From: Actinomycetota bacterium
Lineage (GTDB): Bacteria; Actinomycetota; Acidimicrobiia; Acidimicrobiales; Iamiaceae
Length of the DNA: 64,000 nucleotides
Direction: 5' to 3'
Assembly: GCA_019639075.1 (NCBI GenBank)
Contig: JAHBSO010000001.1
Span: 310,001 to 374,000, forward strand
Shown: in pieces, positions 40,189 to 42,760 of the stretch
Numbering within the stretch: the stretch's first letter is position 1
Layout of the letters: each line of letters opens with the position of its first letter
Position numbers and translations under genes: made by a program
Notes under the pieces: model-generated
The model's database searches: none
Told to the model about the DNA's origin: nothing
Seen by the model: the letters and a program-made list of their open reading frames with translations, nothing else

Positions 40189-41034
40189 TCACGCCGGCAC
40201 CCGCTCGAGTGTCAGGTCGAAGGTCACCACGAAGTCCACGTCGAGGTCCGGGGCGATCGTGAGCGTGACCTCCTTCGCCATGGCGCCGCCGAGCGACACC
40301 GGCGCCATCTGTCCGCTCGCCGACCAGTGGGCGACGTTGATCCAGGTGATGCACGCCGAGGCGTCGAACGCGCCGGGCGTCGTCGGCGCCGTCTCGACGT
40401 TGCCGGAGGCGGCGCAGCCGAGTCCCCAGCCCTGGTCGTCGGCCAGGTCCTCGTGGTACGCCGTCACCAGCAACCGGACGTCGACCGGGGTGGACGGGTC
40501 GAGGAGGATCGCACCGGCATCCAGGGTCAGCTTCAGCTTCTCGTCGCGCGTGGTGAACGAGCCGTAGCGGTGGTCGGCGAACCCGTTCGCGTCCTGGGCG
40601 ACGGCCATGGCCTGGTAGGTGGTGTTCGGTTGGAGGTCGTCGAAGTTGGCGGTGAAGGTCGTCTCGTCGCTGCCCACCGTCGACCGCACCCACACGTCGC
40701 TGCCCCGCCAGACGCTGATCCAGATCTTGGCCGGGGTGTTCGTCTCGACCCGCAGCGCAGCGTTGCGTGCCGCCGGGTAGGCCAGGCCGCTCGTGATGCA
40801 CGACAAGGAGCACCCGCCCTGGCCCGCGGTGTAGCCGAAGCCGGACGAGAAGGGCGACGGCGCCGGCATGCCGCCGATCGTGAAGTCGGCGGCGACCCCC
40901 GCCGGGTGGGCATCCGCCTGGATCCCGGTCGGGGTGTCGGCATCGGACCCCGCGCCGACACCGAGCGCCAGGAGCGTGGTCAGCAGGCCGGTGATGAGAA
41001 GGATCGCTGCGATGGTTGCGGGACGGGAGCGCAT
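40189..41034 (-). CDS. Secreted protein with fibronectin-III-like region
   Basis: This is a 281-residue exported protein. The signal peptide covers about residues 1-28. The body has beta-rich segments such as TPAKIWISVWRGSDVWVRSTVGSDETTFTANFDDLQPNTTYQAMAVAQDANG, which has the L-x-P-x-T-x-Y turn of a fibronectin type III domain, and three or four Cys that could form disulfides. The promoter region carries one copy of a GTAAGG-N13-GGGGTCAGGACGG motif, with the mirror copy serving the sigma-factor gene. A role as a target of that sigma factor is inferred. The function is unknown. Confidence 0.8.
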   Translation of the reverse strand: MRSRPATIAAILLITGLLTTLLALGVGAGSDADTPTGIQADAHPAGVAADFTIGGMPAPSPFSSGFGYTAGQGGCSLSCITSGLAYPAARNAALRVETNTPAKIWISVWRGSDVWVRSTVGSDETTFTANFDDLQPNTTYQAMAVAQDANGFADHRYGSFTTRDEKLKLTLDAGAILLDPSTPVDVRLLVTAYHEDLADDQGWGLGCAASGNVETAPTTPGAFDASACITWINVAHWSASGQMAPVSLGGAMAKEVTLTIAPDLDVDFVVTFDLTLERVPA

Positions 41035-41069
41035 GACCGGACCTCCGGGTCGTTGGGGTGGGCTTCCGA

Positions 41070-41142
41070 CCGTCCTGACCCCTCGCCCGCCGTCGCCTTA
41101 CAGCCCGCCGGTAAGGAACTCCGGCGTGGGGGGTCAGGACGG
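41070..41142. promoter_or_regulatory. Two identical outward-facing promoter-like motifs
   Basis: GTAAGG, 13 nt, then GGGGTCAGGACGG occurs once on each strand: 41111-41142 on the plus strand and 41101 down to 41070 on the minus strand. With GTAAGG as -35 and GTCAGG as -10 the spacing is 16 nt, which is right for ECF sigma factors. The boxes sit about 45 and 35 nt before the start codons of the sigma gene and the secreted gene. The two halves form a nested inverted repeat. Confidence 0.75.
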
Positions 41143-41188
41143 ACGTGCGAACGCCACCTACCATCCGAACCAGCGAACGGGGTGTGGG

Positions 41189-42760
41189 ATGTCCATGGAC
41201 CGAGGAGCGACCGACCTGGCGGCGGTGCTGGCAGCGCAAGCCGGTGACGCCGACGCGTTCGGCCGGCTGTACCTGGCGTGGTTCGACCGCGTCCACGACG
41301 TCGTCCGTCGCATCACGCGGGATCCGCACGTCGCCGACGAGGTCACCCAGGACGTCTTCCTCGATGCGTACCGGAAGCTCGACACGCTGCGGTCACCGGA
41401 CGCGTTCGGTGGCTGGCTGCTCCGCTCGGCCCGGAACCGGGCCCTCAACCGGATCCGGCACGAGCAGCGGTCGGTCGCCGTCGACCCCGGGGGAGACGAC
41501 GACGTGAGCGGGCACCCGCTCGACCGCGGGACCGGGTACGCGGTCGACGAACGGTTCGCGGCCGACGAGAACGACGAGCTCGTCCGGGCCGCGGCCGCGG
41601 CGCTCGGCGAGGCCGACGCCGGCATCCTCCACCTGCACCTCCGCCACGGCCTCGACGGGGCCGAGCTGGCCGAGGAGCTGGGGGTCGAGCCCAACGCGGT
41701 CCACCAGCGCCTGTTCCGGCTGCGGAAGCGGCTGGCCGACGCGATCCGGTCCTGGCAGCTGTGGCGCCACGGCCGCCCGCGGTGCCCGGCGCTCCGCGTC
41801 GCCCTGGAGGCGCAGGCCGTGGCCGGGTTCGATGCCGCGACGGCGAAGATCATCGATCGTCACGCCTCGGCCTGCGACGAGTGCGACGACGAGCGCCGGC
41901 GATCGACGGCGCCCGCCGCGCTGTTCGCGGCGGTGCCCGTGCTGTTGGTGCCGGCCGTGGCCAAGGCCGAGGTGGCCCGGGGGCTCGTCGAGGCGGGCGT
42001 CCCGCTCCCACCCGAGTACACCGACCCGGCGTTCGTCGAGGCCGCGTCGACCGTGCCGGACGGGCCGCACCCGGTGTCCGACGGTCGGCGGGGCGCACGG
42101 TCGGCCCGCAGGATCGCGGTCCTCGCCGTGGCTGCCGTCGCGTTGGTGGCGGTGTCCCTCGCGGTCTGGGCGGCGCCGACCGGGCACGACCCCGATCGCT
42201 CGGCATCCGGACCGGAAGGGGAGGCGTTCGCCACCGGCCCGCTCGCCGGTGACCTGGGCCGGTCGGACGGGGCCGGCACCTCCGGGGTCGACGTCGAGGT
42301 CGTCGACCCGTCGGACGCGACGTCGACGACCGCCGTCACGTCGACCGACCGGGTCCCGACCGGCTCCGACGTGGCGCCCGCGGATCCGACGTCCCCCGAT
42401 GTCGCGGTCGAGCAGCCCGATCCGGTCCCGATCCCGGTCGACGACCCGCCGACGACACCGCCGGCCGGTGCGCCGAGCAGCTCGACGACGACGGTGCCAC
42501 CGGCGCCGGAGGTCGTGCGGTTCAGCGCCCGACGCATCGCCGCCACCGGCGACTGCCGTACGCCGTCGAGTCGCATCGTGGTCACGTGGGCGACCTCCGG
42601 GGCGACCTCGGTGACCCTCACGGCACCCGACGGCACGCGCGCGGTCGCGGCCGAGGGCACCACCGTGGTGTGCCACGCCACCGCCGGTCGGTTCGCGCTC
42701 GAGGCGACCGGGCCGGGCGGCACCAGCACCGCGGGTCCGATCGTCGTCAGCGCTGGGTGA
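41189..42760 (+). CDS. ECF sigma factor fused to zinc-binding motif, membrane segment and outer domain
   Basis: This is a 523-residue protein. Sigma-2 (FGRLYLAWFDRVHDVVRRITRDPHVADEVTQDVFLDAYRKL, about residues 24-90) and sigma-4 (LRHGLDGAELAEELGVEPNAVHQRLFRLRKRL, about 150-183) are intact. After them H225-x3-C229-x2-C232 matches the zinc anti-sigma motif. A hydrophobic segment (about 309-328) should cross the membrane. A long Pro/Ser/Thr/Asp linker and an Ig-like C-terminus (RIVVTWATSGATSVTLTAPDGTR) would lie outside. Sigma factor, anti-sigma and sensor appear fused in one chain. The start ATG at 41189 is favoured over ATG at 41195 by its position after GGGGTG. Autoregulation through the motif at 41111-41142 is likely. 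Confidence 0.9.
   Translation: MSMDRGATDLAAVLAAQAGDADAFGRLYLAWFDRVHDVVRRITRDPHVADEVTQDVFLDAYRKLDTLRSPDAFGGWLLRSARNRALNRIRHEQRSVAVDPGGDDDVSGHPLDRGTGYAVDERFAADENDELVRAAAAALGEADAGILHLHLRHGLDGAELAEELGVEPNAVHQRLFRLRKRLADAIRSWQLWRHGRPRCPALRVALEAQAVAGFDAATAKIIDRHASACDECDDERRRSTAPAALFAAVPVLLVPAVAKAEVARGLVEAGVPLPPEYTDPAFVEAASTVPDGPHPVSDGRRGARSARRIAVLAVAAVALVAVSLAVWAAPTGHDPDRSASGPEGEAFATGPLAGDLGRSDGAGTSGVDVEVVDPSDATSTTAVTSTDRVPTGSDVAPADPTSPDVAVEQPDPVPIPVDDPPTTPPAGAPSSSTTTVPPAPEVVRFSARRIAATGDCRTPSSRIVVTWATSGATSVTLTAPDGTRAVAAEGTTVVCHATAGRFALEATGPGGTSTAGPIVVSAG

Follow-up and report, generated by a model that had tools for sequence, protein, structure and literature searches.

Between the gene for a fused ECF sigma factor and a divergently oriented gene for an exported protein, one short DNA motif occurs twice in mirror order. 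This raises the question of whether the gap holds two promoters, which sigma factor would read them and which other genes would respond. We addressed it in the 64 kb window (the whole stretch of DNA analyzed), in the genome from which it comes and in related genomes.

The mirrored motif in the window and in its genome

GTAAGG-N13-GGGGTCAGGACGG had one perfect match on each strand of the window, at 41070-41101 (minus strand) and 41111-41142 (plus strand), placed back to back and pointing outward, with different spacers. Dinucleotide shuffles of the window gave 0.04 expected matches when up to three mismatches were allowed, and 0 of 100 shuffles reached two. A sequence-only reading of this DNA had described the motif as exact, mirrored and present once per strand, lying between genes at 40189-41034 (minus strand; exported protein) and 41189-42760 (plus strand; sigma factor); both matches were exact and both sets of gene coordinates correct. 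The two-box motif that it proposed occurred exactly as described, but the essential functional core was smaller, comprising a -35 box [G/C]TAAG, a spacer N17 and a -10 box GTCAGG.

Genome-wide counts were obtained by pattern searches of the 2.74 Mb genome, which consists of 28 contigs and is 79% complete, so that targets may be missing. GTAAGG-N12..14-GGGGTC matched three times, at the window pair and at G000:C28:124048-124072 (minus strand), and GTAAG-N17-GTCAGGA returned the identical three matches; allowing the latter one mismatch gave four places, which looked chance-like. The search of the whole genome that the sequence-only reading had called for thus found only three sites, all at promoter positions, rather than a motif widespread inside genes.

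Conservation beside sigma orthologues

Sigma orthologues were gathered by whole-genome search within the order and family and by a scan of genome contigs, the latter contributing Acidimicrobiia MAGs, Aquihabitans sp. G128, Nitriliruptorales, and Haloechinothrix alba and aidingensis. Among the 30 loci, a few of which share one genome (L099/L108; L103/L105), the motif lay on the sigma strand, before the sigma gene or the operon that it ends, in 27; the exceptions were L103 and L105, both cut by a contig end, and L116, with only ~140 nt upstream of the module. Orthologue loci and further target loci together held 44 core sites in 254 kb, against 0.33 expected from first-order Markov shuffles (maximum of three in 100) and one match to the reversed pattern. 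Variants of the core included a spacer of 18 in a few sites and GTCCT in L099. From the end of the GTCAGG box to the ATG there were 40-55 nt in most sites; in L112 and L223 the ATG came only 6-7 nt past the site, which suggests that these messages are leaderless. A sigma gene (10 sites) or an exported protein (31 sites) lay behind 41 of the 44. In genomes without a close sigma orthologue the pattern was about as frequent as its reversed control, and none of 27 background sites was followed, 20-70 nt downstream, by a ribosome site with a signal-peptide-like protein after it, a test stricter than the one applied to the 44 sites. That the repeat arose by chance or mutational duplication and is functionless is contradicted by the shuffle controls and by conservation across orders; we found nothing in its favor, and its probability is very small. 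No site was found in G009 or G022, both of which have sigma homologues. In G022, the two homologues stood in tandem (G022:C71:11742-14000; L226, L228), one match containing an internal TGA.

A pyrimidine-purine pair was conserved 33/34 nt after the first -35 base, at the distance expected for the transcription start of an ECF promoter, and from it we placed the predicted starts in the window. The putative sigma gene promoter has its -35 box GTAAG, kept before the sigma orthologues, at 41111-41115 (plus strand) and its -10 box GGTCAGGA at 41132-41139, with a predicted start at 41145 and a leader of 44 nt. On the minus strand, the putative promoter of the exported protein has GTAAG at 41097-41101 and GGTCAGGA at 41073-41080, with a predicted start at 41067, a leader of 33 nt and a ribosome binding site, GGAGGT, read from the sequence at 41041-41046. 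The two predicted starts are separated by 78 nt, and two polymerases may compete there. The fixed -35- and -10-like boxes, their usual distance from the start codon and the pyrimidine-purine pair argue for ECF-type promoters, as the sequence-only reading had proposed. It had also noted that ECF factors often drive their own genes and use short -35 and -10 boxes separated by about 16 nt; by comparison of sequences, both motif and position are conserved before the sigma orthologues.

The motif pair can also be viewed as an inverted repeat, with arms at 41067-41082 and 41130-41145 that are 94% complementary, and a long inverted repeat between divergent genes would suit a single dyad operator bound by a dimeric regulator rather than two promoters. 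In most orthologue loci, however, there is one site or a tandem pair, and where sites again stand back to back (L094, L099, L100, L115, L117 and L223) the distance between the -35 boxes is 32 to 140 nt, compared with 10 nt in the window. Such a spread of gaps, 10 to 140 nt, is incompatible with a dyad operator of fixed geometry, which we rejected on this ground and on that of the single sites; the operator reading as a whole is very improbable. It is also possible to suppose that another ECF sigma factor serves both promoters and that the fused sigma is merely one of its targets, since further ECF factors are encoded in the genome and one sigma's targets can include another sigma; yet the motif tracks the fused-sigma orthologues across orders, in their own operon or before the gene, and we consider this arrangement unlikely. 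In one Aquihabitans-type clade (L101, L102 and L104; G002, G004 and G011) the -35 box reads CTAAG, and there both promoters of the module carry it; in G002 it was also found at three further places, two of them before exported lipoproteins. The best explanation for a joint change of the -35 box at both module promoters is that a single sigma factor serves both, and this change and the tracking of the orthologues support the predicted recognition by the adjacent fused sigma. The window therefore very probably holds two separate, back-to-back ECF-type promoters, both predicted to be read by the fused, putatively self-inhibited sigma factor, which would activate itself and a wall regulon. Comparison across genomes establishes the motif, its spacing and position, its association with sigma orthologues and the identity of the genes behind it. 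Near more distant fused sigma factors at L027 and L031 (G097, G132) we observed GTAAGACT-N-GTCTTAT, which may be the promoter motif belonging to a sister group.

The exported neighbor offers a case in which promoter and sigma gene are far apart. This 281-aa protein carries a hydrophobic signal at its N-terminus together with a weak Ig/Fn3-like region, for which Pfam gave sub-threshold Ig/Fn3 models only; its single-sequence fold had a mean pLDDT of 44, too poor to use. A homologue (40% identity over 114 residues) is encoded near 1.256 Mb in G015, a genome of another genus whose sigma gene lies near 0.621 Mb, 0.6 Mb away, and the motif precedes both genes. The link between sigma and target is therefore independent of adjacency, and the homologue is the strongest support from comparative sequence for the earlier claim that the fused sigma would drive the exported Fn3-like protein in addition to its own gene.

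Architecture of the fused sigma factor and its known relatives

Domain matches, orthologue alignment and a fold model describe the 523-aa product as a putative one-protein signaling device with ECF52-like architecture. It carries sigma2 (residues 27-94; PF04542, 51.6 bits) and sigma4 (residues 132-182; PF08281, 25.9 bits), both above the Pfam cut-offs and the only sigma regions, as is usual for ECF factors, and its closest solved folds are E. coli sigmaE/RseA (Z 13.1) and B. subtilis SigW/RsiW (Z 12.4). After sigma4 follow C199 and a segment H225-x3-C229-x2-C232, all invariant in the aligned orthologues; HxxxCxxC is the pattern of zinc-binding anti-sigma factors. Pfam returned no named zinc anti-sigma or zinc-finger domain, so the anti-sigma-like assignment depends on the invariant residues. 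A membrane helix at 308-327 was modeled with low confidence, although the hydrophobic stretch is also visible in the sequence, and is followed by a Pro/Thr-rich stretch and, in the model, by an Ig/Fn3-like sandwich at about 437-520. Structure matches of this ectodomain included a CBM56 among the Foldseek matches (E 0.04) and Fn3 domains among the VIA matches. The model as a whole had a pTM of 0.42, from which the packing of the anti-sigma-like segment on the sigma is not readable. The orthologue in G092 (L093:2960-4456, minus strand) has PASTA as its ectodomain instead (E 4e-11). Elsewhere, PASTA domains occur on kinases that sense peptidoglycan and on penicillin-binding proteins.

The studied member of ECF52, a group restricted to Actinobacteria for which autoregulation and release by proteolysis were proposed, is SCO4117 of Streptomyces coelicolor (PMC5826349). 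Our protein shares with it a sigma fused to a (here putative) zinc-finger-like segment, a membrane helix (here modeled at low confidence), a proline-rich extension and an extracellular domain. The ECF52 ectodomain is carbohydrate-binding, and the one described here is Ig/Fn3-like, with carbohydrate binding as a possible role; the predicted regulon here is a small set of exported wall proteins, whereas that of SCO4117 comprises development and antibiotic genes; and the 44 sites follow GTAAG-N17-GTCAGG, not the SCO4117 motif CSGYN-17-SRHA, which is itself a prediction and one of two published ECF52 motifs that disagree (PMC5826349). With sigmaE-RseA of E. coli and SigW-RsiW of B. subtilis it has in common the sigma2/sigma4 fold, GTC in the -10 box, predicted positive autoregulation and predicted envelope targets, but here sigma and the anti-sigma-like segment form one polypeptide and the -35 box is GTAAG, against their GGAAC. 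Activation by proteolysis is expected for the fused ECF48, ECF52 and ECF53 factors, and it has been tested for IutY, an ECF243 factor from Pseudomonas putida (PMC8999054). IutY likewise has its anti-sigma portion fused to the sigma across the membrane and is activated by proteolysis, although it serves iron-siderophore signaling in a Gram-negative bacterium, with other domains and targets.

Predicted targets outside the window and the PxFTG tail

The third site in the genome precedes an operon on contig C28 that encodes a secreted 126-aa protein with a P-x-F-T-G tail (G000:C28:123615-123995, minus strand; L003:1068-1448). The next gene, which follows after 5 nt (C28:122791-123609, minus strand), encodes an L,D-transpeptidase lipoprotein of 272 aa. 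This enzyme matched YkuD (PF03734, E 2.6e-22), and the catalytic residues HG..SHGCxR were invariant. In many relatives, PxFTG and L,D-transpeptidase genes separate the motif from the sigma gene or stand divergently next to it; across the 30 orthologue loci, 21 had a PxFTG protein and about 16 an L,D-transpeptidase. The seven best matches of this enzyme's profile in 198 genomes all fell in genomes with a sigma orthologue. The motif also precedes Ig-domain lipoproteins at L081 (G116) and at L239 and L242 (G002), whose domain resembled the sigma ectodomain in a single hhalign comparison (94.7%, E 6e-8); BLAST of these lipoproteins against the ectodomain gave nothing useful. Further targets in G110 and G015 encode proteins that are Calx-beta-like by eye. 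The "compact self-regulated secretion circuit" of the sequence-only reading is supported by comparison for both of its genes, but with a third site before the PxFTG/L,D-transpeptidase operon it would not be a closed two-gene circuit, and the term cell-envelope response fits it better.

We infer binding by the fused sigma, as well as the signal, the proteolytic release and the effect on the wall, in the following model. The fused sigma would carry its own brake, made up of the cytoplasmic HxxxCxxC segment, the membrane helix and the Ig-like domain outside the cell. That outer domain would sense a change in the wall, upon which the protein would be cut or opened and free sigma released. Free sigma could then transcribe its own gene, giving positive feedback, together with the neighboring gene for the Fn3-like exported protein and, at the third genomic site, the operon for the PxFTG protein and L,D-transpeptidase, leading to remodeling of the wall.

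The small secreted proteins of these loci have Pro/Asp-rich bodies that cannot be aligned, while a C-terminal tail P-x-F-[T/A]-G is common to them (for example RPTFTG, RPDFTG, HPTFTG, DPNFTG, NPNFTG and VPNFAG). We saw this tail at L088, L089, L091-L094, L098, L100-L106, L109-L111, L113, L114 and L116, and at the genome's own C28. As a DNA pattern, P-x-F-T-G followed by a stop was at background (0-2) in most genomes of the order, but reached 34 in G198, 20 in G147, 14 in G027, 13 in G174 and 9-11 in G209, G075, G120 and G116, with reversed controls at 0-1. In the 40 stretches read, nearly all PxFTG genes encoded proteins with a signal peptide, in which a Thr/Pro-rich linker commonly led into the tail. 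Away from the fused-sigma locus, too, PxFTG/LxFTG genes adjoin L,D-transpeptidase genes, at L203 (G036), L204 (G069), L205 (G190), L206 (G027:C1), L208 (G076), L209 (G148) and L211 (G047), where an estimate from hit densities puts the chance expectation of such adjacency at well under one.

Like LPXTG sortase substrates, PxFTG proteins combine a signal peptide, a Thr/Pro-rich linker and a short C-terminal T-G motif; unlike them, they end at the G, with neither the hydrophobic helix nor the positive tail that follows LPXTG. Sortase (PF04203) was considered as a partner and set aside as not discriminating, being present in 173 of 198 genomes. That a YkuD enzyme is encoded together with a small exported protein recalls Braun lipoprotein and other proteins fixed by L,D-transpeptidases, whose known attachment to peptidoglycan runs through a Lys side chain or the protein N-terminus (PMC12729407, PMC12274547). 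The PxFTG tail, by comparison, offers no amine, so attachment would need chemistry other than the known L,D-transpeptidase routes. Our literature search found no description of the tail, and from its sequence distribution it is a candidate new wall-sorting tag, apparently undescribed. We tentatively suggest, while thinking it rather doubtful, that in Actinomycetota P-x-F-T-G-COOH serves as a C-terminal signal for sorting to the wall, on which a partner L,D-transpeptidase acts, and that the twin promoters belong to a stress circuit supplying both. The enzyme might, for example, take the L-Thr-Gly end as a mimic of the stem peptide and join the Thr to peptidoglycan.

With this promoter pair, a familiar type of circuit gains a further example and a motif that is defined here for the first time; what would surprise a specialist is the conserved tail beside an L,D-transpeptidase. 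For sigma factors that are tethered to the membrane and inhibit themselves, a class with disputed targets (PMC5826349), the motif provides a sharp promoter prediction across many genomes and names a small regulon open to immediate testing. The tail is shared by exported proteins that are not related in other respects, and it may represent a novel means by which actinobacteria anchor proteins to their wall.
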